Positions 3,423 to 23,827 of a stretch of DNA of 27,942 nt are shown here, in pieces (the first letter of the stretch is position 1; each line of letters starts with the position of its first letter). The notes below the pieces were generated by a model that was given only the letters and a program-made list of their open reading frames with translations, searched no databases and was not told the origin of the DNA. This stretch comes from a virus: positions 1 to 27,942 of IMG/VR virus record IMGVR_UViG_3300020195_000136; one strand, 5' to 3'. A program made the position numbers and the translations under genes.

Positions 3423-4322
3423 GTGGGAGTCTCGGCGCCTTGCGCCTCGTGGGCGTTCGTCGCCGACGTGTTGTCGGACCGTTGCGGCGACGACGTGTGC
3501 GGCGACAGTGCCCTGTCGGACCCGTACGTGTTACAGCAGTCGCTCGACGACGCCTCGTACCTGTTGAACGCGTGGACCGCCTACCAGTTCCAGGGCGGCC
3601 AGGACGGCTGCGCAGGTGTCGTCCGGCCGTGCGCCTCGTACGGCCCGGCGCGCAGCGTCCCCGAGTGGACACCGCACGCTGGCGGCTACGCATGGGGAAT
3701 GTGGCCCACCGGCTACGGCAACACCGTTTCGACTGGGGTGCTCGACACCAACGGGTTCTGCTGCTACGGGAACAGTCAGCCGTTGGCTCGCCGTGGGTGC
3801 GGCTGCGGCGGCCCGTCACAAGTCGCCCTCGGCGCCTACCCGGTCACCGCAGTGACCGAAGTGCGAGTGGACGGCAACGTCGTCCCATCCGACGAGTACC
3901 GCGTCGACGACCACCGATGGCTGGTACGTCTCCCACCGCCAGGCACGACCGGCCGCCCACACTGGCCGAACTGTCAGCAACTCCAACTTCCTCCCACCGA
4001 ACCCCGCACATTCCAAGTGTCGTTTTCGTATGGCGGCATCGTCCCCGAGGCGGGGGTGCGTGCCGCCATCGCGCTCGGGTGCGCGATCAACGCCGAGCGG
4101 TGCGGCGGTCCGTGTGTCCTCCCTCAGAACACGTCTCAGGTCAACAAGGACGGCGTGTCGATCACGTTGGTCCGCCCAACCGAAGACGTGCTCGACAACA
4201 TGCCGTTCGCGGTGAGGTCGTTCGTGAACGCGGTGAACCCTTCGGGGTTGCGTCGTCGGCCACGGGTGATGACCCCGGACCTGCCACGCGAGGTTGTGCG
4301 CACCACTTGGACCGCACCGTAA
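3423..4322 (+). CDS. Head-to-tail adaptor protein
   Basis: 299-aa Cys-rich protein closely matching the pattern of actinophage head-to-tail adaptors (gp6/gp15-like connectors that join the portal to the tail). Visible landmarks: an N-terminal helix with ASYLLNAWTAYQFQG; a VRPCASYG segment; a GCGCGGPSQ motif followed by VTAVTEVRVDG and SDEYRVDDHRWLVR; a WPNCQQLQLPPTEPRTF segment; a helix containing GVRAAIALGCAINAER; and the ending NAVNPSGLRRRPRVMTPDLP. All these occur in the same order in the family. The start is GTG at 3423, four nt after the preceding stop, with no strong ribosome-binding site. It is the last gene before the promoter at 4332 and the glycosylation block, so the normal neck/tail gene order is interrupted here. 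Confidence 0.8.
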   Translation: MGVSAPCASWAFVADVLSDRCGDDVCGDSALSDPYVLQQSLDDASYLLNAWTAYQFQGGQDGCAGVVRPCASYGPARSVPEWTPHAGGYAWGMWPTGYGNTVSTGVLDTNGFCCYGNSQPLARRGCGCGGPSQVALGAYPVTAVTEVRVDGNVVPSDEYRVDDHRWLVRLPPPGTTGRPHWPNCQQLQLPPTEPRTFQVSFSYGGIVPEAGVRAAIALGCAINAERCGGPCVLPQNTSQVNKDGVSITLVRPTEDVLDNMPFAVRSFVNAVNPSGLRRRPRVMTPDLPREVVRTTWTAP

Positions 4323-4331
4323 CCCGGTAGG

Positions 4332-4349
4332 TGCTACGGTAAACGTATG
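4332..4349 (+). promoter_or_regulatory. Leaderless-type promoter upstream of methyltransferase
   Basis: Extended -10 motif TGC-TACGGT (TACGGT at 4335-4340) followed after 6 nt by ATG (4347). That spacing puts the transcription start on or next to the ATG. No recognisable -35 is seen. It is one of eight near-identical motifs in gene gaps in the window. Confidence 0.6.
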
Positions 4350-4361
4350 GTTGTGTTGTGA
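4347..4361 (+). CDS. Four-codon leader mini-ORF (MVVL)
   Basis: ATG at 4347, at the predicted transcription start, opens a four-codon frame (M-V-V-L-stop). Its TGA at 4359-4361 overlaps the ATG at 4361 of the methyltransferase (TGATG). The arrangement suggests that a ribosome loads at the 5' end of a leaderless mRNA, terminates at once and restarts on the methyltransferase. It is too short to encode a function of its own. Alternatively, the methyltransferase simply starts at GTG 4358 and the mini-ORF is incidental. Confidence 0.35.
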   Translation: MVVL

Positions 4362-5077
4362 TGGGCGCCGACATTGTCGACTCGACGATGCTCCAAGGTT
4401 CCCAGCCGATCCGGTTGCCGCGCAGCCGACACGACCGCCCCGAACGCGAACATTGGGAGTACGCACGCCTCGACTCGATGCGCCGCAACCTCAACCCCGG
4501 CGACGTGATCTACGACATCGGCGCCGAAATGGGTGACATGTCCACCCTGTACGGACTGTGGGGATGCCAGGTGGTGCTCGCCGAGCCGAACCCGGCGAGC
4601 TGGCCGTGGGCGCGTGCCACATGGGAAGCCAACGATCTTGGCCGTCCGTGGTGCTGGTGGGGGTTCGTGTCCGACAAATGCACCGACGGGCCCGACGGCA
4701 CCGGACTGTCGGACGGATGGCCGCCACCCGCCAACAACCGATGCGAACCTGAACACGGGTTCGTCACCGAACACGAACGGGGCGCCGAGTGGCCGTCGGT
4801 CACCATCGACGCTCTCGCCGACATGGTCGGCCCGCCCGACGCGATCACGGTCGACACCGAATCGTACGAACTTGAGGCGATGGTAGGCGCCGGGCGGGTC
4901 CTCGCCGATCATCGGCCGTTGGTGTGGCTGTCGGTGCATCCGCCGTTCCTCGCCGATCGTGGCCTGTCCGACGTGATGGTGCATGGCACGATGGCCGACG
5001 CCGGATATGTGGGCACCTTCCTGGCGTCCGACCACGAGGAACATTGGTTGTTTCGGCCCACCGAAACTGTGCTGTGA
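4361..5077 (+). CDS. FkbM-family SAM-dependent methyltransferase
   Basis: 238-aa class I methyltransferase. Residues about 47-60 carry the SAM-binding motif I (VIYDIGAEMGDMS, a variant of D-x-G-x-N-x-G), followed near residue 76 by EPNP, the acidic end of strand beta-2. Around residues 146-180 VTIDALADMVGPPDAITVDTESYELEAM matches the FkbM signature in which the strand Ile-x-x-Asp is followed by EG/S-Y-E, and the VWLSVHP strand follows. FkbM enzymes O-methylate sugars or related hydroxyl groups; a glycan made by the neighbouring transferases is the natural substrate. The start could be ATG 4361 or the adjacent GTG 4358; 4361 overlaps the mini-ORF stop. The central insertion (about residues 100-140) is Trp/Pro/Gly-rich. 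It overlaps the next gene by GTGA. Confidence 0.82.
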   Translation: MGADIVDSTMLQGSQPIRLPRSRHDRPEREHWEYARLDSMRRNLNPGDVIYDIGAEMGDMSTLYGLWGCQVVLAEPNPASWPWARATWEANDLGRPWCWWGFVSDKCTDGPDGTGLSDGWPPPANNRCEPEHGFVTEHERGAEWPSVTIDALADMVGPPDAITVDTESYELEAMVGAGRVLADHRPLVWLSVHPPFLADRGLSDVMVHGTMADAGYVGTFLASDHEEHWLFRPTETVL

Positions 5078-5973
5078 TCCCGGCTGTCTGGTATTCGCTG
5101 TTCGGCGATGTTGACGGCCGTTCGCAGTGGGACGGCGGCCGGGGCGTCGTCGGCGACCTTGTCTCCGCCCGTTGCGGGCCGATCCCCGACCTGGTGCAGA
5201 TGGACAACACAGACCAACGGTTCGCCGCCCGCAACGACCGGACTGTGGTGCTGCTTCCTGGTCAGCACCACGCCGACGCCCGGTCCGTCGAGTGGCTGTG
5301 CGAGGACTTGGCACGCTCCGAGCGGGTGGTGCTCATCGTCCACGGCGACGAGGCCAGCCTTTTCCCGTGGCAGCAAGTCGAACATCCCGATTTGACGTTG
5401 TGGGTGATGACGCCCCGCCGGTCGGTGCACGGGTCGTGCCCCGACGGGACACGGTTCATAGGCGAAGGCGCCGGGCCTCCCGTCGCTTTACCGGCCGGCG
5501 TCAAAGATGTTGACGTGGCGTTCCTCGGCCAATCGACCCACGTCCGCCGCCAAGAGCTGGTGGCTGTGCTGGCACAGATGGACCCGCAGCGAACAGTGTG
5601 CGAACCGACCCCCGGTTTTCTGTTGGGGCGTCCACGGTCCGGGTACATGGCGCAGATGGGCCGGGCGAAGGTGGCGCCGTGCCCCGCCGGCGTGGAAAGC
5701 GTCGACTCGTTCCGCTTGTATGAGGCGATTGGGGCTGGGTGTGTGCCGGTGGTCGAGCGACACGATCGGCGCGGCGTCGACGAGGGCATGTGGGATCTGT
5801 GTTATCCGGGTGGGGTGCCGTTTCCGGTGGTGTCGGATTGGGGCGAGCTGCCGGGGTTGTTGCCGAACCTGTTGGCGGGTCATGCCGAGTTGTCGGCCGA
5901 GTGCCGTGAGTGGTGGTCTGGTCGTCGGCGGGCGATGGCCGCCGATCTCACCGCCGACCTAACCCGCCCCTAG
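5074..5973 (+). CDS. Exostosin-like / GT-B glycosyltransferase
   Basis: 299-aa protein starting at GTG 5074, which overlaps the methyltransferase stop as GTGA. The frame is open further upstream but inside the methyltransferase gene, so the coupled start is preferred. The C-terminal half contains a short-form nucleotide-sugar donor site, ESVDSFRLYEAIGAGCVPVV near residue 207, the hallmark of exostosin-type and related GT-B enzymes (DS-x-R-x-x-E-A-x-x-x-G-C-x-P-V). A strand VDVAFLGQ near residue 147 fits the start of the second Rossmann domain. It would transfer a sugar from a nucleotide donor to an unknown acceptor in the host cytoplasm. Codon third positions shift from C-rich to G/T-rich after about 5690. 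No membrane segment is visible. Confidence 0.68.
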   Translation: MIPAVWYSLFGDVDGRSQWDGGRGVVGDLVSARCGPIPDLVQMDNTDQRFAARNDRTVVLLPGQHHADARSVEWLCEDLARSERVVLIVHGDEASLFPWQQVEHPDLTLWVMTPRRSVHGSCPDGTRFIGEGAGPPVALPAGVKDVDVAFLGQSTHVRRQELVAVLAQMDPQRTVCEPTPGFLLGRPRSGYMAQMGRAKVAPCPAGVESVDSFRLYEAIGAGCVPVVERHDRRGVDEGMWDLCYPGGVPFPVVSDWGELPGLLPNLLAGHAELSAECREWWSGRRRAMAADLTADLTRP

Positions 5974-5977
5974 TAGG

Positions 5978-5996
5978 TGCTACGGTACGCCGTATG
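5978..5996 (+). promoter_or_regulatory. Leaderless-type promoter upstream of membrane protein
   Basis: TGC-TACGGT (TACGGT 5981-5986) lies just after the preceding stop codon and is followed after 7 nt by ATG (5994). The larger motif taggtgctacggta is shared exactly with the sites at 4332 and 9101. Confidence 0.62.
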
Positions 5997-6362
5997 GCTC
6001 TCCGAGAACCAACAGACGCCGCCGAGATCGTGCGCCTCATCGCATCGGGGCACGCCACGTTCGACGACAAGATGCGGGCCGTCCGGTTCGTGACGGCCCG
6101 AGTCGTCCTCGTCGCGCTCGTCGCGGTGCCCGTGCTCTTCGTGCTGACGGGGTCGCCTCTGGCGGCCGTGGCTTGCGCTGCGTGTGCGCTGCTCTGCGCA
6201 CCGGGTCTTGTGGCTGCGGTGTGGATCTCCGTTGGCGGGCACCGTGAGGCGCGCAGGTACAACGATCTCCCACTGTGGCTGCTCAACCAAGCCTTCGCCT
6301 TGTTGATCCTGTCCTTGATCATCCTTCCGCTGTGGGCAATGTCGAACGCGTGGAGCCTGTGA
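5994..6362 (+). CDS. Small membrane protein, three predicted membrane segments
   Basis: 122-aa protein. The ATG at 5994 is chosen because it sits 7 nt after the TACGGT box, consistent with a leaderless mRNA; the longer frame upstream overlaps the previous gene. After a charged N-terminus (residues 1-32) there are hydrophobic segments at about 34-52 (VVLVALVAVPVLFVL), 55-77 (LAAVACAACALLCAPGLVAAVW) and 93-117 (LLNQAFALLILSLIILPLW). Its stop overlaps the start of the next glycosyltransferase (GTGA). Possible roles are a membrane anchor or lipid-linked sugar partner for the glycosylation genes, or a superinfection-exclusion protein. No family was recognised; both roles are guesses from context. 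Confidence 0.7.
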   Translation: MALREPTDAAEIVRLIASGHATFDDKMRAVRFVTARVVLVALVAVPVLFVLTGSPLAAVACAACALLCAPGLVAAVWISVGGHREARRYNDLPLWLLNQAFALLILSLIILPLWAMSNAWSL

Positions 6363-7135
6363 CTCCCGACGACGACATCACTGTGCTCGTCACCGTCTCC
6401 CCGATCCCGTCGCATCCGACCACCACCATCATCGACGACTGCCTGAACACGGTCCGCGCCCGGCTCCCACACGCCCGCATCATCATCTGCGCCGACGGAA
6501 CCCGCCCCGACCTCGAACACCGAACCGTCGCCTACCAACAGCACCTCGACACGGTAGGCGGCTACGACCACGTCGAACTGGTCCGCTGGGCCGAGTGGCA
6601 ACACCAGGCTCGCATGGTCCGCCACGCACTCGACAACCTTGTCACCACTCCACTGGTCCTGTTCATGGAGCACGACACGACGTTGCAGGACACGATCGGG
6701 TTCGACGCGCTGGTCAACGTCGTGCACTCCGGCGAAGCGAAATGTGTTCGCTTCCACCACGAATCGCAGGTTCTCGCCGAACACGAATGGTTGAACGTTC
6801 GCGGCGGCCAAGTCGAGTGGGTGCAAGGCGTCCCACTGATCGCAACCGCCCAGTTCTCGGGCCGCCCCCACCTGGCCGACACCGACTGGTATCGGCGGCT
6901 GCTCGGCCCCGACTTCTTTAACCCCGAGTCGCGTACGTTCGTCGAGGACGTGGCACACGGCGCGATCCTCACGGCGTACAAGGACCATGGGCGCGCAGGA
7001 TGGGACCAGCATCGGCTGTTCATATACGCCGAACCCGACGCCGCCGGGTCGATCCAACGGTCCAACACGGTCGACGGCCGACAAGACGACCCGAAAGCCG
7101 ACTGCGACATCCTCCCGCTCGAGCCGGCGCCGTGA
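6359..7135 (+). CDS. GT-A-like glycosyltransferase
   Basis: 258-aa protein beginning at GTG 6359, overlapping the membrane protein stop as GTGA. The N-terminus (DDDITVLVTVSPIPSHP) is a strand-loop typical of GT-A folds, followed by a helix (IDDCLNTVRARLPHARI) and the strand IIICADGTRP. Near residue 102 LVLFMEHDTTL is the likely metal/nucleotide-sugar site, in the position where GT-2 enzymes have D-x-D (here E-H-D). Later segments (WVQGVPLIATAQFSGRPHLADTDWYRRLL) would bind the acceptor. It probably transfers a sugar in the host cytoplasm as part of the glycan block. Family 2-like is the best description; the exact family is uncertain. It ends in a GTGA overlap with the next gene. Confidence 0.65.
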   Translation: MTPDDDITVLVTVSPIPSHPTTTIIDDCLNTVRARLPHARIIICADGTRPDLEHRTVAYQQHLDTVGGYDHVELVRWAEWQHQARMVRHALDNLVTTPLVLFMEHDTTLQDTIGFDALVNVVHSGEAKCVRFHHESQVLAEHEWLNVRGGQVEWVQGVPLIATAQFSGRPHLADTDWYRRLLGPDFFNPESRTFVEDVAHGAILTAYKDHGRAGWDQHRLFIYAEPDAAGSIQRSNTVDGRQDDPKADCDILPLEPAP

Positions 7136-8082
7136 ACGTCGTCTACGTCGGGAACGTCGGACCGGCCGCCCACGCCACCTACACCACCGAAAACCATGTC
7201 GCCAAATCGTTGGCCGCGTTGGGTCACACCGTTATTCCGGTGATGGAAGGCGCCGACTGCGGCATCGAGGTACGCCGCCAGCTGCGGGCACAGTCGGTCG
7301 ACCTTGTCCTCTACACGCGCACCGACGGTCTTCGCTGGGACCACGGCGACGCCATCGACTGTTGGGACATCTGTCGTGGCCGTGGCATCCCCACGGCGTC
7401 TCTGCACCTCGACGCGTTCTTTGGACTCGACCGGCGGGGCGTCAAAGTCGATGTCGGGAACGCCTTGTTCGCTGTTGACTATGTGTTCACCGCCGACGGC
7501 GACCACCAAACCGATTTCGCTGACCGTGGCATCAACCATCATTGGCTGCCACCTGGGGTGCTGTTCGAGGAGTGCGGGCCGGGCACCCCCCAAGCGCAGT
7601 GGGCCGCCGATGTGGCCTGGGTTGGCTCGTCCCGCGGATATCACCGCGAGTGGCCCCGCCGCCCACAACTAGTAGCAGCGTTGGAACAGTCGTACGCCGG
7701 TCGGCTGACGCGTGCCGGCGACGGGGTAACAGTCCGAGAGTGGCAACTAAACGATCTGTACGCGTCGACGAAAGTGTCGGCGGGCGATTCGCTGGCCCCG
7801 AAACGCGAAGCGAGCCGCTACTGGTCGGATCGTGTCCCCGAAGCGGCGGGACGCGGGTCGGTGCTCGTCCACCCGACGATCGACGCAGCCGTCGACCTGT
7901 TCGGAGATTCGGTGGTGTGGTGCGGATGGGATATCGGCGACCAGCTCGCGGCGATCGACGACGTGTTGACGTGGACGCCAACGAAACGGGCCGCGCACAT
8001 CGCCGCCGCTGTCGCCCACGTGCAAGCGGAGCACACGTACCGGAACCGGTGCAGGACGATGCTCCACACGATCGGCCTGTAA
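7132..8082 (+). CDS. GT-B-like (CgeB/group 1 type) glycosyltransferase
   Basis: 316-aa protein with GTG start at 7132 overlapping the preceding stop (GTGA). The N-terminal Rossmann domain is clear: NVVYVGNVGP strand-loop, helix with ENHVAKSLAALGH, then strands VDLVLYTRTD, IPTASLHLDA and VDYVFTADGD, followed by a helix and WLPPGV. This order matches CgeB-like and other GT-B transferases. The second domain starts near residue 160 (ADVAWVGSS) and contains ASTKVSAGDSLAP and a region ending RGSVLVHP, where donor-binding residues are expected. Function is inferred to be sugar transfer to a glycan acceptor. The canonical E-x7-E motif is not obvious, so the donor cannot be named. Confidence 0.62.
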   Translation: MNVVYVGNVGPAAHATYTTENHVAKSLAALGHTVIPVMEGADCGIEVRRQLRAQSVDLVLYTRTDGLRWDHGDAIDCWDICRGRGIPTASLHLDAFFGLDRRGVKVDVGNALFAVDYVFTADGDHQTDFADRGINHHWLPPGVLFEECGPGTPQAQWAADVAWVGSSRGYHREWPRRPQLVAALEQSYAGRLTRAGDGVTVREWQLNDLYASTKVSAGDSLAPKREASRYWSDRVPEAAGRGSVLVHPTIDAAVDLFGDSVVWCGWDIGDQLAAIDDVLTWTPTKRAAHIAAAVAHVQAEHTYRNRCRTMLHTIGL

Positions 8083-9099
8083 ATGTTGGGTGTGTTGTGC
8101 CGCGTCGACTCGTCGGGTCTCGCCGTCCAAACACAGTTGATGGTCGACCTGCTGAACCCTGACGTTGTCGTGTTCGTCGATATGGGGTCGGCGAACCGGG
8201 GACCCGTCCACCGGCTGAACCATCCGAACAGTATGTGGGCGCCCGGCCAGAACTCGGCGCTGACAGGGCAGACGGTCGCCCGGTTCTTACGTGATTGCGA
8301 CACGGTGTGGACAGCCGAGTCGGTGTATTGGACTTCGTTGCCTCGCCGTCTGCGCCGCACCCGCATATGTGTGACCGCGAACCCGGAGCTGTGGCGGCCG
8401 TCGGGCGAAGCGAACGTCGACGCAGTGTTCCCGACGGTGTGGCACGCCGACGGTCCGGTTGTGCCGCATCCGTTCCCGGCAGGGCGGCCCAACTTTGATC
8501 GGGTCGCCGCCGGGAACCTGGCCCGGCAAGGTCCGGCTCGTAGGGTGCTGCATGTCGCGGCGCCGGCCATGCTGGACCGCAACGGCACCGACCCTTTGTT
8601 GGCGGCGCTCAGGTTGTATCGGGGGCCGCCGTTTACGTTGGTGGTGGCCGGGGCAGGGCTACCGTCCACGTTCGACGTGCCCCGCCGTGTGGGGGATGTG
8701 ACGGTGGAACGGTTGGCGCCGGTCGTTGACCATGCCGACATGTATGTGGACGCCGATCTGTATGTGGGTCCGCGTCGGTATGCGGGGTTGCATCTCCCGG
8801 CCGGTGAGGCGGCGGCGGCGGGAGTGCCGGTGCTCATGTCGGCTGTCAGCCCGCAGAACAGTTGGGGTGGGGTGGACGCTTCGATCGTGTGTGGCCGCGG
8901 CGAGTTCCATGCGATGCGCGGGGGCCGGTTTCGGGTGGCCGTCCCGGACCCGGCGTCGATCGCTGCACGGTTGGCTGCGTACACGTCTGATGATGGGTCG
9001 TGTCGTGAGGGGTGGCAGCGTGCGGCGTCGTTGTGGGCGTTCCGTGGCGGCTGGGACCATGTGGCGCCGTCGTGGAACCACTGGCTACGCCGACCGTAG
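8083..9099 (+). CDS. GT4-like GT-B glycosyltransferase
   Basis: 338-aa protein whose ATG directly abuts the TAA of the previous gene. The N-terminal domain has a short Rossmann pattern (DVVVFVDMG, CDTVWTAESVYW, TRICVTANPELW). The second domain begins near residue 155 with RVLHVAAPAMLDRNGTDPLLAAL, a G-R-x-x-x-x-K-G type position, followed by FTLVVAGAG. Near residue 235 RYAGLHLPAGEAAAAGVPVLM matches the donor-binding E-x7-E motif region of family 4 transferases (G-x-x-x-x-E-A-x-A-x-G-x-P-V). It would act on a sugar acceptor with its neighbours. From about 8600 to the end codon third positions are strongly G/T-rich, unlike the beginning of the gene. Confidence 0.7.
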   Translation: MLGVLCRVDSSGLAVQTQLMVDLLNPDVVVFVDMGSANRGPVHRLNHPNSMWAPGQNSALTGQTVARFLRDCDTVWTAESVYWTSLPRRLRRTRICVTANPELWRPSGEANVDAVFPTVWHADGPVVPHPFPAGRPNFDRVAAGNLARQGPARRVLHVAAPAMLDRNGTDPLLAALRLYRGPPFTLVVAGAGLPSTFDVPRRVGDVTVERLAPVVDHADMYVDADLYVGPRRYAGLHLPAGEAAAAGVPVLMSAVSPQNSWGGVDASIVCGRGEFHAMRGGRFRVAVPDPASIAARLAAYTSDDGSCREGWQRAASLWAFRGGWDHVAPSWNHWLRRP

Positions 9100-9100
9100 G

Positions 9101-9119
9101 TGCTACGGTAGGCGGTATG
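9101..9119 (+). promoter_or_regulatory. Leaderless-type promoter upstream of pentapeptide-repeat gene
   Basis: TGC-TACGGT (TACGGT 9104-9109) immediately after the preceding stop codon, with ATG 7 nt further (9117). ACCGTA at 9093-9098 and TACGGT form a perfect 6-bp inverted repeat across the box, which may be incidental because CCGTAG is also the stop context. Confidence 0.62.
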
Positions 9120-9713
9120 TCAACGACGAGTGTTTCTGGTCCGTCCGCCGACGAGCTTGCCCAGGTGGCGTTGCGGTCCATTCCTGCGCTGCTCGACAAG
9201 CACGGCTGGTGCCAGGGCTTCGACCATGACGAGGAGGGCGCGGCGTGTTTGCGTGGCGCCATCGTGGACGTAACCCCGGCCGGTGAGGTGCGGGCGTACG
9301 TGTGGGACCGCCTGACCTGCCAGGTCGGCAACATCGTGGACTGGAACGACACGACTGGCCGCACCGTCGACGAGGTGCAGGCGGCATGTGTCGCCGCCGC
9401 AGCCGACCTCCGCCCACGTGCCGACCTGCGCCACGCCGACCTTGGGGACGCCTACCTGGCAGGCGTCGACCTGCGGGGCGTCGACCTTGGGGACGCCTAC
9501 CTGGCAGGCGTCGACCTGCGGGGCGCCAACCTGGCAGGCGTCGACCTCCGAGGCGCCAACCTCGTGGACGCCGACCTGTGGGGCGCCGAACTGGCAGGCG
9601 TCGACCTGCGGGGCGCCAACCTGGCGGGCGTTGTTGGGCTGACCGCCGCCCAGCTCGCCGCCGCTCTCAACGTCGACAAGGCGCACAACGTGCCCACGTT
9701 CGCCGCCGTCTGA
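9117..9713 (+). CDS. Pentapeptide-repeat protein with N-terminal DUF6197-like domain
   Basis: 198-aa protein. ATG 9117 is chosen because it follows the TACGGT box by 7 nt. Residues about 10-95 (ALLDKHGWCQG, CLRGAIVDV, then IVDWNDTTGRTVDEVQAAC) resemble a small domain common in actinobacteria and their phages, DUF6197-like. Residues about 100-170 are pentapeptide repeats of the form A(D/N)L-x-x, alternating ADLRH, VDLRG, ANLAG, with some GDAYL units. Such repeats fold as a right-handed beta-helix; some mimic DNA and bind gyrase, but many have no known function. The DNA holds a recent tandem duplication. The final segment (residues 172-198) caps the helix. Its TGA overlaps the next ATG (TGATG). 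Confidence 0.75.
   Translation: MSTTSVSGPSADELAQVALRSIPALLDKHGWCQGFDHDEEGAACLRGAIVDVTPAGEVRAYVWDRLTCQVGNIVDWNDTTGRTVDEVQAACVAAAADLRPRADLRHADLGDAYLAGVDLRGVDLGDAYLAGVDLRGANLAGVDLRGANLVDADLWGAELAGVDLRGANLAGVVGLTAAQLAAALNVDKAHNVPTFAAV
9437..9525 (+). repeat. 44-nt tandem duplication inside pentapeptide repeats
   Basis: Bases 9437-9480 are repeated without mismatch at 9482-9525, a 45-nt period equal to three pentapeptides. Shorter copies of ctggcaggcgtcgacct recur downstream to about 9610. The exact identity suggests recent expansion by slippage. Confidence 0.85.
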
Positions 9714-9886
9714 TGGCACCGCCACCGCCAGCACGCCCGATGCGCCCCCAACGCATCGAAGCGCTCCGAGCCGCCGCCAAAGTCCACGAAGGCCGCGTGT
9801 CAAGCAGCCCGACCGAAGCAACACACGAACGCGCCGCCGTCCTCGCGACCGCCGCAACGTTCGAAGCATGGCTCACCGAACAGTGA
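9713..9886 (+). CDS. Small hypothetical protein (57 aa)
   Basis: ATG at 9713 overlaps the TGA of the pentapeptide-repeat gene (TGATG), and its own TGA overlaps the GTG of the next gene (GTGA). The 57-aa product begins with a Pro/Arg-rich tail and continues as one amphipathic helix rich in Ala, Glu and Arg (RIEALRAAAKVHEGR, then ERAAVLATAATFEAWL). No family was recognised. Reality is supported by the overlaps on both sides, which are the rule in this genome, and by codon use with C/G at third positions. Confidence 0.6.
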   Translation: MAPPPPARPMRPQRIEALRAAAKVHEGRVSSSPTEATHERAAVLATAATFEAWLTEQ

Positions 9887-10668
9887 CCGACACCTACGGC
9901 GCCGAATACAAGCAGCGTGTCCTCCACGACGGCCGTGTCGACCCGGAAACAGTGCGGGCGCATCTCGCTCTCCTCCACGAGTCGGGGGTGCCGTTGACAC
10001 GTGTCGCCGAACTGGCAGGCGTCGATTACTCCGGGTTGCATCGGCTCTACAGCCGTGGCGTGTCCCGCATCACGAGACGTGTCGCCCACGCTGTTCTCGC
10101 TGTGGGACCCGACGACGCCATCGACACCGGACGGGTGCCGTTCGCCCGGCTCGAAGCGGCCACCCGACGTTTAGAGGCAAAGGGGTGGACTCGACACCAG
10201 ATCGCGGTGGCTGTCGGATGGCGGCATTTCCCGTCGGTTTCGCAGCGCGGGGCGAAGCGTGTCACTTTGCGCACATTGAGACTGGTCACGTCTCTCGAGA
10301 GCCAGCCGGCGAAAGCGTACGGCCGCACAGTCGTCGACAGGACCGAAGCGGACGCCCAACGCGAACGCGACATGCAACGCAAACGCACATGGCGTGAGGA
10401 GACTGGTGTGGCCCGAATCGTCGCAGCACCCGAACCGGGACGGTGGCGTCGACGATCGGCGTGCCGGGACCGTGACCTGACATGGCTGTTCTTCTCGACA
10501 AAGATGTGGGATGTGCGCCGAGCGAAAACGATTTGCGAAAGTTGCCCGGTGCGGGCCGAGTGTTTGGAGTGGGTGCTCGCCCAACGAACCGTCGACGATT
10601 TCTACGGCACCTGCGCCGGGACCTCCGAACCGGAACGTGTCGAGCTGCGCAAACGGCGGACAGCATGA
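9883..10668 (+). CDS. HTH-WhiB fusion transcription regulator
   Basis: 261-aa protein. GTG 9883 gives a GTGA overlap with the upstream stop; an ATG 15 nt earlier is the alternative. Residues about 20-140 hold DNA-binding helices (SGVPLTRVAELAGVDYSGLHRL is a helix-turn-helix; a second similar unit with GWTRHQIAVAVGW follows). Residues about 186-255 form a WhiB domain: four cysteines at about 194, 218, 221 and 227 (C-x23-C-x2-C-x5-C) that would hold a 4Fe-4S cluster, then a turn where the usual G-V-W-G-G is G-T-C-A-G, and a basic C-terminus (ELRKRR). WhiB proteins bind the host sigma factor and act as redox-sensitive regulators. Phage WhiB proteins are usually short, so the N-terminal HTH extension is unusual. 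Confidence 0.75.
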   Translation: MTDTYGAEYKQRVLHDGRVDPETVRAHLALLHESGVPLTRVAELAGVDYSGLHRLYSRGVSRITRRVAHAVLAVGPDDAIDTGRVPFARLEAATRRLEAKGWTRHQIAVAVGWRHFPSVSQRGAKRVTLRTLRLVTSLESQPAKAYGRTVVDRTEADAQRERDMQRKRTWREETGVARIVAAPEPGRWRRRSACRDRDLTWLFFSTKMWDVRRAKTICESCPVRAECLEWVLAQRTVDDFYGTCAGTSEPERVELRKRRTA

Positions 10669-10805
10669 TCGAACGGGAATGCGAGGCGTGTGGCGCCTAC
10701 TGCACAGGCGACGTATGCGAATGCGATTGGGACACATGCCCCGACGTGTTCGCCACCATTAAGGACGGTGAACATGAACATGGCGAAGGTGAAGGGGTCA
10801 GCTAG
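10665..10805 (+). CDS. Small acidic Cys-rich protein (46 aa)
   Basis: ATG 10665 overlaps the stop of the WhiB fusion gene (ATGA). The 46-aa product has five cysteines in its first 25 residues (C-x2-C-x3-C-x5-C-x-C, then one more at residue 25) followed by an acidic His/Glu tail. The spacing suggests metal binding. It overlaps the next small gene by about 30 nt in another frame. No family was recognised. Confidence 0.5.
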   Translation: MIERECEACGAYCTGDVCECDWDTCPDVFATIKDGEHEHGEGEGVS

Positions 10806-11004
10806 CCATGTGTGGGCCGAGTGCCCGTGCGGCAAAATCGTTCAGCGGGCCACGTTCAGACTTGGCACGACACCCGACACACGATGCCAAGAATGCATGC
10901 CGCCCCGAGGAACGGACCGGTGCGGCGAACAGGTCCGCAGCCCGGCGTGGCGTGGCACCCGACGATGTGTGCTGACCCGCCGCCACAAAGGACGATGCGA
11001 ATGA
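10774..11004 (+). CDS. Small zinc-ribbon-like protein (76 aa)
   Basis: 76-aa basic protein. ATG 10774 is chosen for AAGGA at 10761-10765, 8 nt upstream. Cysteines come in pairs: C-P-C near residue 17, C-Q-E-C near residue 38, then single ones near residues 50, 65 and at the end. The first two pairs, about 20 residues apart, look like a zinc ribbon. Its stop overlaps the start of the next gene (ATGA). No specific function can be given; small zinc proteins of this type are common phage accessory genes. Confidence 0.55.
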   Translation: MNMAKVKGSASHVWAECPCGKIVQRATFRLGTTPDTRCQECMPPRGTDRCGEQVRSPAWRGTRRCVLTRRHKGRCE

Positions 11005-11936
11005 TCGACCTGGTGGCCACCGAACCGCATTACGCCGCCCATCTGCTCCCCGTCGCCGAAGCGTTGGGTTCCGACCTGGGAACGTTCCATCTGCCCGGAC
11101 CGAAAGTCGCGGCCCTGGTCGACTATCCGAACCGGTCGACGAACATCCCCGACCGGCACACCGCCCGTCCGTTGCTCGCCGCCGACTATGGGACCATCCA
11201 ACAGCATCGGTATCGGCCGGTGGTTCTGGCTGAGCACGGCGCAGGCCAGCAGTACCGGTCGCCGAACCCCGCCTATGCGGGCGGTCTGAACCGTGACCAT
11301 GTGGCCCTGTTCTTGTGTCCGAACGAACACGTCGCCGCCGCGAATCGGCGCACATATCCGGGGACGCCGAGTGTCACTGTCGGTGTTCCGTTGCTCGACG
11401 CCCACGCGTATCGGGTGCGGACAGGGTCGACGGTCGTGTTGACGTGGCATTGGGATAACACGATGTGGCCTGAGTCTCGGAGCGCGTTCGACCATTACAA
11501 GGGCGGGCTGGGGGATGTGGTGGGCGAGTTGAGGGCTGATGGGTGGACGGTGTTGGGGCATGCCCATCCGCGTGCGTGGGCCAAGCCTCCTAGTGTGGGC
11601 GGATGGTATGAGGCGTGGGGGGTGGAGCCTGTGTTCGAGTTTGGTGAGGTGTTGCGTCGGGCTGATGTGTTGGTGTGCGATCAGTCGTCTGCCGCGTTTT
11701 TGTCGGCTGCTGTGGGGGTGCGGCAGGTGGTGCTGGACGCCCCGTGGTATGCGGGCGGGTATGCGGCTGGTTTGTTTCCCCGGTTTTCGGTGCCGTTGGG
11801 TGTGCGGGTGTCTGGTCCGGGTGGGGTGCGGGATGCTGTTGGTGGGGCGTGGTGTCCGGATGTGTCTGAGGTGGTGCCGTGGGTGGGTGGGTGTGGTGGC
11901 CGTGCAGCTGCCGCGATTCGGGCGGTGTTCGCGTGA
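11001..11936 (+). CDS. CDP-glycerol glycerophosphotransferase-like GT-B protein
   Basis: 311-aa protein starting at ATG 11001 (ATGA overlap). Around residue 225 RRADVLVCDQSSAAFLSAAVGVRQVVLDAPW matches the polyol-phosphate transferase signature (A-D-x-x-x-x-D-x-S-S-x-x-x-E-x-x-x-x-x-x-P-x-x-x), except that Glu is replaced by Leu-Ser. Earlier, RPVVLAEHGAGQ near residue 73 matches the Q/H-G-x-G phosphate-site loop, and VVLTWHWDN near residue 150 the start of the second domain. In bacteria these enzymes (TagB/TagF type) extend wall teichoic acid, a surface glycopolymer. It may modify a surface or virion glycan. The second half of the gene, from about 11430, is strongly G/T-rich. Polyol transfer versus sugar transfer cannot be decided from motifs. 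Confidence 0.62.
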   Translation: MIDLVATEPHYAAHLLPVAEALGSDLGTFHLPGPKVAALVDYPNRSTNIPDRHTARPLLAADYGTIQQHRYRPVVLAEHGAGQQYRSPNPAYAGGLNRDHVALFLCPNEHVAAANRRTYPGTPSVTVGVPLLDAHAYRVRTGSTVVLTWHWDNTMWPESRSAFDHYKGGLGDVVGELRADGWTVLGHAHPRAWAKPPSVGGWYEAWGVEPVFEFGEVLRRADVLVCDQSSAAFLSAAVGVRQVVLDAPWYAGGYAAGLFPRFSVPLGVRVSGPGGVRDAVGGAWCPDVSEVVPWVGGCGGRAAAAIRAVFA

Positions 11937-12205
11937 GACGCAAACCCCGCTACCAGCGCGGAACACGCGAACGCGACCGCCGCAAAGCCAACCCCGAACA
12001 TCCACTATCCGCCTACGACACAGGCACCGCCCACTGCCCCACCACCAAACGCCAATACGTCACCAAAGCCAAGGCACGCGACACACTCGGCAAAATGGCC
12101 CGCAAAAACGGGACAGGCATGGGAGGCCAAAACCGGCTCAACGTCTACAAATGTGCGGAGTGCGGCTGGTTCCACATCGGGCACCGTCCGACTCCCAGAC
12201 CGTAA
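11933..12205 (+). CDS. Small basic zinc-finger-like protein (90 aa)
   Basis: GTG 11933 overlaps the stop of the previous gene (GTGA). The 90-aa product is strongly basic at the N-terminus (RRKPRYQRGTRERDRRKANP). It has CPTTKRQYVTKAKARDTL and, about 45 residues later, YKCAECGWFHIGH, a C-x2-C-G-W-x-H motif found in small phage proteins thought to bind nucleic acid. The single early Cys plus C-x2-C and His could bind zinc. It is the last gene of the inserted block before the tail genes. Confidence 0.6.
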   Translation: MRRKPRYQRGTRERDRRKANPEHPLSAYDTGTAHCPTTKRQYVTKAKARDTLGKMARKNGTGMGGQNRLNVYKCAECGWFHIGHRPTPRP

Positions 12206-12289: not shown

Positions 12290-12304
12290 TAACCTGACGG
12301 TGTG
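12290..12304 (+). promoter_or_regulatory. Possible leaderless -10 (TAACCT) before tail completion gene
   Basis: TAACCT (12290-12295) fits TANNNT and lies 6 nt before GTG 12302, the same spacing as the TACGGT sites. There is no Shine-Dalgarno sequence for this gene. The motif is weak on its own. Confidence 0.35.
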
Positions 12305-12700
12305 GCCGACGTGTCCCAACTGATCGCCCAGCTCGAAGCCTCCGCCGCCGACGCGTTCGTGTCGGCGCAAGACGCACTCATCGACGTGCTCGTCGCGGCG
12401 GCGCCCCGCAAAACGGGGGTCCTCCAAGAATCGTTTCGTGCGACAATCGGCAGCGGAGGGACGATCATCACGGGAACGGTCGTCAACAACGCCGACTACG
12501 CGTCGTATGTTGACGAGGGCACCCCACCCCACGAAATCGAAGGCAACCCGCTCCTCGCGTTCGAAGCGTTCGGGATGACCGTCATCGTCAGGTCGGTGCA
12601 GCATCCCGGAACGGACCCGGACCCGTTCTGGACGGACAACATGACCGACGCCCAATGGAGTCTGCTGCTTCAAGAAGCCTTCGACGCGTCAACGTTCTAA
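12302..12700 (+). CDS. Tail completion protein (HK97 gp10-like)
   Basis: 132-aa protein starting at GTG 12302. The segment ALIDVLVAAAPRKTGVLQESFRATI followed by VVNNADYASYVDEGTPPHEI is the family signature of HK97 gp10-like tail completion/neck proteins: a helix ending in APxxTGxLxxS, then an A-x-Y-A-x-Y-V-x-x-G-T-x-x-H motif. Such proteins sit at the head-tail junction and are needed to join or finish the tail. Length is typical. This gene resumes the structural order broken at 4322 and is followed by the tail terminator, which supports the call. Confidence 0.82.
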   Translation: MADVSQLIAQLEASAADAFVSAQDALIDVLVAAAPRKTGVLQESFRATIGSGGTIITGTVVNNADYASYVDEGTPPHEIEGNPLLAFEAFGMTVIVRSVQHPGTDPDPFWTDNMTDAQWSLLLQEAFDASTF

Positions 12701-17180: not shown

Positions 17181-20100
17181 ATGGCTGCACAGTGGAACCC
17201 GAACCAGTCCGGCACGATCGGCCTCGAATGGTTCCCGACGCAGGTGGGCGGCACAGCACTGACGCCTGGCCGTGGGGTGGGGATAACGGTCCCGTCGACG
17301 GCCACCGAAACGATCGAAAACGTGTACGTCGGGTTCGACAGCATCGCGACGGCGGGCCTGTTCTGTTTGGACGTGTTCACCGCCGGCAACGAAATCCCGG
17401 CGGCTGTGACAACGGAAACGTTCGTCCCGAACTCCGATCTGGTCAACACGGCGTCTCTGTGGCAGAACCCGGTTCCGAACGCCGTCAACCTGTTTGCGTA
17501 CATCGACAACGGGTCGGTGTCGGCGTCGTCGTACATCACCTATGCGGGGTCGTATACGGCGTCGGGGACGTACGCGGCAGGGTTCGGGACGGTGGCGTGG
17601 CCTGCGAACCGTCGGGTGTTGTCGATCACGTTCAGTTTTGTGGGGTCGGTGGCCTCGTCGACTCCGGGCCGTTTGCAGGTCATTTACCGTGCCGGTGGTG
17701 TGTCGTATCCGATGGGGACGGTGACGCTCACCGATTCCGACAACCTGTTCCAGTTTGTGCTGGGGGAGCTGAATCCGGCTACGTCGAGGCCGTGGACTGA
17801 GGCGGAGGTGGAGGCGTTTGACACGTCGGCGGGGTTCGGGTGGCAGGCCCTGTCGGGGAAGACAACTCAGATGCGTATTTTTGATGCGTCGATGGCGGTG
17901 GCGTGGGTGCCCGAGAACCGGTTGGCGGTCGGCGTCGAAAACTTGGGGACGTTCGCTGCGGCCGACGGTCCGGTTTGGGAGACGTTCGATTTGACGGCCC
18001 CGAACACGGGTGTCGCGAACTGGGCGAAGGCGGCGAGCGTCGACTATCTGTTCGTGGTGCGGCCGTTGGCGCCGGGGTCGGTGTCGGGTGGGGCGGCCGG
18101 GCAGGGCAGTGTGCGGACGTTTGATTCGGGGTTGGCGTTGCCGACGGGGTCGGTGGGGTATCGGCCGTTGTTGGCGCCGACGGGTGCGGTGGTGTCGCCT
18201 GGTGCGGTTGAGACGTTTGGGATGTCGTTGGCGTTGGACGTGAACGCGTCGGCAACAGACTCGGCCGACGGCCAGCCGTACATTCAGGCAATCGGAGTAG
18301 CCGGGGGGCCACAGCTCGTCAACGGTGCCGCCGCCGGAACGTACACGTTGATGCGTGCCGCGCTGGTCGCCGAAGACGGCCAGACGGCCGACGACGACAT
18401 CAGTTGGAGCATCGTCGGCCCCGGTCCCGGCACCATCGATTCGGGTGTCGTCACCTTCGCCGAGGTGCTGGCAGGCGTCCCGCTGGCGCGCACCGTTGAC
18501 CCCGTCTTTCTCGCAGCGTTCGCCGGCCAGGGATATCTGGTCGACATAACGATCAACGCCACGTTGGCGGCTGCCACCACATACCAGGTTGTGTGGGGGG
18601 CGTCGGACTCTGTGGCCGCCTTCACCCTTACCACCAGGGACGCCTTCACCGCCGACCGTGGCAACCCTGCCACCTACGGCGGCACGACCCTGAACTACGA
18701 CGCGGAAGCCCCCGACGACCAGCCGGTCACCCTTTCCACGGTCCCCGACCAGCCCACCTCGTTCTCGTTCTCGTACGACTGGTACGACACCGACAACCAA
18801 GGCTGCAACCCCGAACAGATCCCCTACTGGACGCTCGAATGGGAACCCACCACCCTCGGCGCAACGTTCAGCTACTACCAGATCGACCGGCAAATCGACG
18901 GCGGCGCATGGGAAACGATCGGCCACATCACCACCGAAGCCGCCGTCCAATACCAGGACAAAGAGGCGCCGTTCTGCCGGCCCGTCACCTACCGCATCCG
19001 AGTGGTCCGAGCAGGCGACCTCATCCCGTCCGTCTGGACGACCACCATCGACCAGACGCTCCCCACCCCCGACTGCGTCTACTACCTCTCGTCGAACCTT
19101 CTCGACGTGCAACTGGCGTACAACGCCGGGGACCGCACCGTCTGGCAGTTCCCGTCGTCGGACGAAGTCCAGATTGCTCCGAGAGCGGGCGGCGACTACC
19201 AGCAGGCGCTTGTCCACTCCGAGTGGCGCGGCGACGTGTTCGACTTGGATCTGACAGTGTGGGCGCCCGCCAACCGTGCGGCCACACCAGGTCCCGGCGA
19301 GGACCGGTGGACGTTCGACCCGCTCATCGCTCTGACCCGAGCGGCTGTCCCGTACATCTGTGTGCGCGACCGCACCGGCCGCCGCTGGTACGCGAACGTC
19401 AACGTCGAGGAGGGAACGGCGAACAACGAAGGGGTTGTCCCTGTTGATGTGGCGTCCGCGGTGGTCGCCGAGATCACTGCTACGCCTGCGGTGGTCGACG
19501 TGTCCGTCGACTCTGACGTGCTCCTCCTCGATCTGTTCAACCGGGCGAACACGGCCAACATTGACGGGTCGCTCCCGAACGTCGGTCCCGCGTGGGACAC
19601 CCTCAACTTTACGGGCGGCACCATCGGCATTTTGGCCGGTCGGGCGTACACGTCGGTCGCCGACGCCGCCGCGAACTTGGCGTTCGCAACCGGGTTGGCG
19701 TTGGCCGACGGATGGTTGGAGACGACGTACACGTACGACCCGCTGTCTGTCGGCGCGGAGACGGTTGGGCCGCTGGTCTGGCGGCTGAACACGGCGACGT
19801 TCGACGGCTACCAGGTGCTCGTCGGCAACGACGCAGGCGTCAACAGGCTCAAGGTGGTCCGCCTCGACGGTGGCGTCCCGGCCGTCTACTACGACGAGCC
19901 GGTCCCGTTCGTGGCCGGGCAAACCGTCCGGTTCCGCGTCGACTATTTGGGGTCATACGCACGGGTCACTCTTGACGGGGTGACTCTTGTCGAGATCATC
20001 GACGACGCGTTCAACACGAACACGACTGTCGGGTTCGCGTTGAACGCCGCCGCCAACTTCTTGGGCAGCATCGAAGCGGGCGGCTGGCCGGACGGCACAA

Positions 20101-23793: not shown

Positions 23794-23827
23794 CCCTACC
23801 CAACCCCGTACGTACGTGCTACGGTCG
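23794..23827 (+). repeat. 34-nt promoter repeat, copy 1
   Basis: Identical to 26739-26772. It includes the 10-bp palindrome CGTACGTACG and TGC-TACGGT (TACGGT at 23820-23825). TTGACC (23789-23794) precedes it, 25 nt from the -10, too far for normal -35 spacing. GTG 23832 follows after 6 nt. Confidence 0.75.

Follow-up and report, generated by a model that had tools for sequence, protein, structure and literature searches.

The 27,942-base IMG/VR virus record IMGVR_UViG_3300020195_000136, analysed over its whole length and hereafter called the window (GC content 67%, no tRNA found), carries within its structural module a block of genes encoding glycosyltransferase-like proteins and a methyltransferase, all on the + strand. 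In PHROGs terms, the left flank consists of a major head gene (phrog_777), phrog_779, a major tail gene (phrog_792) and a head-tail adaptor (phrog_783), and the right flank of a tail completion gene (phrog_5), a probable tail terminator, assigned by position and synteny, and then the tape measure gene. An earlier sequence-only reading had placed the block between the adaptor and the tail completion gene, and each gene that it named was found there on the + strand, between the adaptor end at 4322 and the tail gene start at 12302. These two genes were also said to lie normally close together, as is the case in two relatives lacking the block: in DSL-LC01 the adaptor ends at 19116 and the next gene starts at 19120 (within 3 nt), while in Mimi the adaptor and the next tail gene overlap. 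A gene caller trained on the cassette genes (67% GC DNA) was used. The borders and the transferase genes are as follows:

3423..4322, + strand: head-tail adaptor gene (phrog_783, E 5e-32), the left border, outside the cassette
4361..5077 (alternative start GTG 4358), + strand: FkbM-family S-adenosylmethionine methyltransferase (PF05050, phrog_8156)
5074..5973, + strand, overlapping FkbM by 4 nt: Exo, exostosin-like GT47 glycosyltransferase (PF24785 RXYLT1_C above cut-off)
6359..7135, + strand: GTA, GT-A-fold glycosyltransferase (AlphaFold2 and Foldseek; conserved DG and ExD motifs)
7132..8082, + strand: CgeB-like GT-B glycosyltransferase (PF13524, 40.7 bits; phrog_28745, E 2e-31)
8083..9099, + strand: GT4-like glycosyltransferase (PF13692 above cut-off; profile matching GT4 structures)
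11001..11936, + strand: CDPg, CDP-glycerol-phosphotransferase-like GT-B protein of the teichoic-acid polymerase superfamily (family alignment)
12302..12700, + strand: tail completion/HK97-gp10-like gene (phrog_5, PF04883), the right border

The FkbM methyltransferase and the four glycosyltransferase types named by the sequence-only reading were recovered by profiles, the GT-A type by structural modelling. FkbM passes the curated PF05050 cut-off (24.3 against 22.7 bits), and its family profile matches the FkbM structure 2py6 (E 4e-11). The CgeB-like family is marked by an invariant YWSDR...GR block. The CDP-glycerol-transferase-like assignment of CDPg was upheld through its family, PF04464 being matched by six of nine aligned members (best 1e-10) and not by the window copy, which has no Pfam match; the HG, HxHP and DxxS motifs are invariant, and the nearest solved sequences to the family profile are Cps3D and TarL. 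By Pfam and PHROGs matches, fold and conservation, the genes belong to transferase families and keep their catalytic motifs, and a complex, probably methylated glycan, much as proposed earlier, is the best reading of this evidence.

GTA has no usable Pfam family match; its AlphaFold2 model (predicted local distance difference test, pLDDT, 93.6) adopts a GT-A fold, with B4GALNT1, polypeptide GalNAc-transferases (ppGalNAcT) and TarP as Foldseek neighbours, and residues D46, E104, D106 and E196 are invariant. Within the Exo family, RXYLT1_C is matched by 27 of 29 members and Exostosin_GT47 by 20 of 29, the window copy falling below the cut-off of the latter; the best solved relatives of the profile are the chlorovirus protein AO75L (A075L; 6e-6) and then human EXT1 (0.0012). 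Exo and GTA are separate genes in the window and form one fused polypeptide at 50 of the 97 related loci described below. For the fused protein of locus L003 (model pLDDT 91), the top whole-chain Foldseek matches are EXT1-EXT2 and EXTL3 (E 9e-12, more than 600 columns), and VIA-align places the first domain on AO75L (Z 15.6) and the second on B4GALNT1 (Z 17). Its domain order is that of the exostosins, but the domains are differently oriented (global root-mean-square deviation about 20). None of 27 GTA members has a Pfam match to GT64, the fold being GT-A, and the VIA-align matches of the GT-A domain include no GT64 enzyme, an absence that rules nothing out. We class the resemblance to exostosins as one of architecture.

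The block is organised as three tightly coupled operons, in which most junctions are 4-nt overlaps: FkbM-Exo; the gene for a membrane protein followed by GTA-CgeB-GT4; and a pentapeptide-repeat gene, a small open reading frame (ORF), a WhiB-like gene, two further small ORFs, CDPg and a gene for a 90-amino-acid (aa) protein, p90. An exact copy of the 15-bp motif GTAGGTGCTACGGTA heads each operon, with an ATG 5-6 nt further on, which supports, at the sequence level, the earlier claim that the block has promoters of its own:

4327..4341, + strand: promoter-like motif GTAGGTGCTACGGTA of operon 1 (exact repeat; leader ATG 5 nt downstream)
5973..5987, + strand: promoter-like motif of operon 2 (exact repeat)
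9096..9110, + strand: promoter-like motif of operon 3 (exact repeat)

Two further copies, with 2 mismatches each, lie at 23812 and 26757 and show the same spacing before two frames (starts 23832 and 26777); the promoter-like signal of the block is therefore one that this phage also has elsewhere. The five sites compare with 0.24 expected in the window, and 0 of 100 shuffles reached this number. If TACGGT is taken as the -10 element, the start of transcription would coincide with the ATG, pointing to leaderless mRNAs, and the five GTAGGTGCTACGGTA-type sites are likely to be leaderless phage promoters. A four-codon leader ORF (MVVL) lies at 4347-4361, its stop overlapping the FkbM ATG.

Related loci were collected through CgeB relatives in IMG/VR and then through GTA-based additions, and removal of redundancy left 97; individual loci are denoted here by L numbers. 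For pattern scans, a closer subset (A8) was used instead of alignment A1, which was too diverse; when Exo, CDPg or the adaptor was used singly to scan viral contigs, nothing matched, the relatives probably being too divergent. The transferase cassette recurs at all 97 non-redundant loci at about 25-45% identity with synteny kept, comprising CgeB (85 loci), FkbM (62), Exo (90), GTA (86), GT4 (79) and CDPg (14); the CgeB and GTA counts are biased by the route of discovery, and the co-occurrence of the other genes is unbiased. Exo and GTA are adjacent at 86 of the 97 loci, and all cassette matches share a single strand at 96. The commonest order, CgeB-FkbM-Exo-GTA-GT4, was observed at 38 loci, plus six with CDPg appended, and is rearranged in the window to FkbM-Exo-GTA-CgeB-GT4-CDPg. 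Pairwise distance matrices correlate for all gene pairs (r 0.28-0.59; 0 of 1,000 permutations). Extra sugar genes adjoin the cassette, with further glycosyltransferase-like families at 54 loci and a nucleotide-sugar epimerase at 13. A second cassette form (L015-L018, L024, L028-L033, L036) has a CgeB that is extended at the N-terminus and measures about 620 aa; Exo and GTA are not fused in it, and FkbM, if present, comes after GTA. In one phage group (L051, L062, L128 and similar loci), ParB-like/DNA methyltransferase genes and a terminase follow the cassette.

GTA is encoded in at least 582 viral stretches as opposed to seven matches in 84,980 cellular genomes, numbers that are not strictly comparable, since the cellular patterns were slightly stricter; the viral number may include near-identical contigs more than once. 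At least four of the seven cellular matches are phage regions: L125 (Nocardia sp. CDC159) and L126 (Acidimicrobiia) adjoin phage head genes, and L128 and L129 adjoin terminase or portal families. Of 399 Nocardia-order genomes, 1 has full-length GTA, as does 1 of 198 Acidimicrobiia-class genomes, each time the phage-bearing genome itself; on these searches full-length GTA is essentially virus-restricted. No GTA match was found in 72,556 plasmids. Among 50,697 sequenced phages, neither Exo, GTA and GT4 of the window nor GTA, Exo and Exo-GTA of other cassettes had a tblastn match; CgeB relatives occur there in nine Streptomyces phages, and a CDPg relative in Rctr41k, adjoining the capsid gene.

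The cassette is associated with virion genes well beyond the window. A packaging, head or tail gene of eight recurring families lies within 4 kb of it at 51 of the 97 loci, a lower bound, as L093 and L103 adjoin terminase- and portal-like proteins of families not counted; terminase, portal, major head, adaptor and tail completion are among the families that its immediate neighbours match most often. On long contigs with a detected large terminase subunit (TerL), portal or major capsid protein (MCP), the marker lies at most 10 kb away in 23 of 35 cases, nearly all on the same strand. The insertion point varies: the cassette follows the adaptor in the window and in L022, follows the MCP in L126 and L025, and precedes the MCP in L007.

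A link to a known system is provided by homologues of Che8 gp110, reported to be essential for capsid glycosylation (PMC12363180), in five cassettes (L093, L125, L127, L106 and L063; 39-51% identity, E down to 3e-59). The homologue directly follows GT4 in L093 and L125 and lies within 460 nt in two more, and a reciprocal scan from the gp110-like protein returned two loci, L093's own contig and L133, with CgeB adjoining in both. According to accounts that cite Freeman (2023), mycobacteriophage virion glycosylation involves Che8 gp108-110 and Corndog gp38, and it resembles the present case in relying on phage-encoded transferases, including a methyltransferase domain, that act on capsid and tail proteins (PMC12363180; PMC12619734; PMC11256854). 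Che8 differs in having three glycosyltransferase-family genes near its right genome end, none of which is Exo, GTA, CgeB, GT4 or CDPg by profile, whereas the window has six transferases within the structural module and no gp110-like gene.

We propose, with a probability of about 70%, that the block is a phage-specific cassette, expressed late, whose enzymes glycosylate virion proteins in the cytoplasm. It would be expressed together with the late genes; its soluble enzymes would draw on host nucleotide-sugars in the host cytoplasm and build up a multi-sugar glycan stepwise on a virion protein itself, be it capsid, head decoration or tail tube, either ahead of particle assembly or while it proceeds. 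FkbM would methylate the glycan, presumably on its sugars, and CDPg would perhaps add a polyol-phosphate. The Exo-GTA two-domain enzyme of many relatives suggests successive or alternating addition of two sugars; late expression, the protein acceptor, methylation of a sugar and the identity and order of the sugars are all inferences, and the finished glycan might have a shielding or surface-binding role. Of the two uses that the sequence-only reading had left open, virion decoration and a change of host polymer, the former is favoured by the late-module location in many unrelated phages, by the combination of soluble transferases and a sugar-type methyltransferase with no lipid-carrier enzyme or flippase, by the five relatives linked to a Che8 gp110 homologue, by the profile and fold match of Exo to A075L, which is assigned to a viral capsid glycan, and by the recurrence of these families as a syntenic cassette whose GTA is essentially virus-restricted. 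Several points weigh against it: both glycan and acceptor are predictions from the genes, the window is without the gp110-like gene, its membrane protein and teichoic-acid-polymerase-like enzyme could indicate a wall polymer, the DNA methyltransferase/ParB genes beside some relatives could indicate DNA, and in three long contigs the closest head or portal marker is on the opposite strand.

Because of CDPg and the membrane protein, the main rival, though an improbable one, is that the enzymes alter a polymer on the host surface (teichoic acid, arabinogalactan or glycolipid) for receptor masking, superinfection exclusion or progeny release. In its favour, CDPg is a member of the teichoic-acid-polymerase superfamily, GTA is coupled to the gene of a 122-aa membrane protein, and the GTA fold resembles the wall-teichoic-acid transferases TarP and TarS. 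However, CDPg is optional (14 of 97 cassettes) and the membrane protein is a feature of the window alone; a Pfam search of the ten block proteins revealed no lipid-carrier transferase or flippase, including GtrA flippase and the bactoprenol glycosyltransferase GtrB; in phages unrelated to one another the cassette still keeps company with virion genes; and serotype-converting cassettes usually lie outside structural genes.

A role in glycosylating bases of the phage's DNA (hypermodified cytosine or thymine) as a protection from restriction seems less probable still. Virus-encoded DNA-hypermodifying glycosyltransferases are mentioned with reference to Pyle (2024) (PMC12619734), and the DNA methyltransferase/ParB genes adjoining some relatives are the only positive support among the loci. 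The enzyme set, on the other hand, resembles that for extended protein or polysaccharide glycan synthesis, and some cassettes are linked to the Che8 capsid transferase; a Tet_JBP dioxygenase was matched in 0 of 50 cassette contigs, a weak argument since the control was silent too, and none was seen in the window. That the block is a patchwork of separately acquired moron genes without joint function is very improbable and, for the transferases, strongly disfavoured: the pentapeptide, WhiB, small-ORF and membrane-protein genes have no relatives in other cassettes and the gene order of the window is rearranged, yet dozens of diverse phages have the six transferase genes together and in order, and both gene fusions and a correlation of their divergences are seen.

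As far as we know, glycosylated virions have been demonstrated in no more than a few phages, mainly mycobacteriophages. Besides Che8, the proposed virion glycosylation by cassette enzymes can be compared with chlorovirus PBCV-1 (A064R, A061L, A075L), which likewise encodes predicted soluble transferases and sugar methyltransferases, bears a methylated glycan on its major capsid protein and supplies, in A075L, one of the closest solved structures to Exo; A075L is assigned to the capsid-protein glycan, which is also methylated by viral enzymes (PMC9614988). PBCV-1 differs in being a eukaryotic algal virus with dispersed genes, an N-glycan and no cassette synteny. Human EXT1/EXT2 and EXTL3, of heparan sulfate synthesis, are, like the phage fusion, single chains with a GT47 domain ahead of a GT-A domain. 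They differ in that the phage GT-A domain has no GT64 Pfam match, no membrane anchor is seen in the phage protein, the superposition deviates by about 20, and the window has the two domains as separate genes. The Dryad-type locus of Streptomyces phages (gp34-36) combines a CgeB-like glycosyltransferase with an FkbM-domain methyltransferase downstream of tail/lysis genes, but has CgeB and FkbM-type genes only, without Exo, GTA or GT4. In virus Rctr41k, gp32 is a CDPg homologue (31%) beside the capsid gene, whereas the remaining cassette genes were not found in the 38.9 of 41.3 kb searched.

Virion glycosylation is already known, whereas the literature searched (exostosin/FkbM phage cassettes) appears to contain no description of this cassette or of its exostosin-like two-domain enzyme. 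A bolder idea, which we hold tentatively and consider rather unlikely as it stands, is that a phage-specific GT47 plus GT-A enzyme stands at the centre of a widespread pathway of virion-glycan synthesis, whose product on the particles is a chain of repeating units, glycosaminoglycan-like or polyol-phosphate-capped; hundreds of uncultured phages, essentially missed by isolation collections, would have it. A conserved set of such enzymes among the structural genes of many uncultured phages would in itself make particle glycosylation a common phage trait, supply a sequence signature for detecting it and provide a compact bacterial system for exostosin-like chemistry. Tractable carriers of the cassette are L125, which is prophage-like and comes from the isolate Nocardia sp. 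CDC159, and the IMG/VR records L093, L103 and L072, which to judge from their identifiers may be isolate genomes.

The remaining genes of the block are:

5994..6362, + strand: 122-aa membrane protein with about three hydrophobic helices (hydropathy)
9117..9713, + strand: DUF6197 and pentapeptide-repeat protein (PF00805, PF19698)
starting at 9713, + strand: small ORF (translation)
about 9868..10668 (start possibly 9883), + strand: helix-turn-helix (HTH) and WhiB-like regulator (PF02467, 48.7 bits; phrog_472)
10665..11004, + strand: two small Cys-rich ORFs (starts 10665 and 10780; translation), coupled by 4-nt overlaps to WhiB and CDPg
11933..12205, + strand: p90, 90-aa putative zinc-ribbon protein (phrog_3424, unknown function)

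The membrane protein, correctly reported before, has no Pfam or PHROGs family match, and neither it nor the pentapeptide and WhiB proteins have relatives in the other cassette loci. The earlier description of about 7.9 kb of glycan-building cargo holds for the transferases and not for about 1.9 kb (9117-11004), which is not glycan-related; the genes that it named are present, and it had omitted the pentapeptide/DUF6197 protein, the HTH-WhiB protein, the small ORFs and p90. "Cargo" understates the transferases, which are a conserved cassette; the WhiB and pentapeptide genes, by contrast, are passengers specific to this lineage. The host of the virus is probably an actinobacterium, because the 143 database relatives of the MCP come almost exclusively from actinobacteriophages and the block contains a WhiB gene. 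The HTH-WhiB protein lies in the structural region, coupled to the small Cys-rich ORFs and CDPg, and might control late genes.

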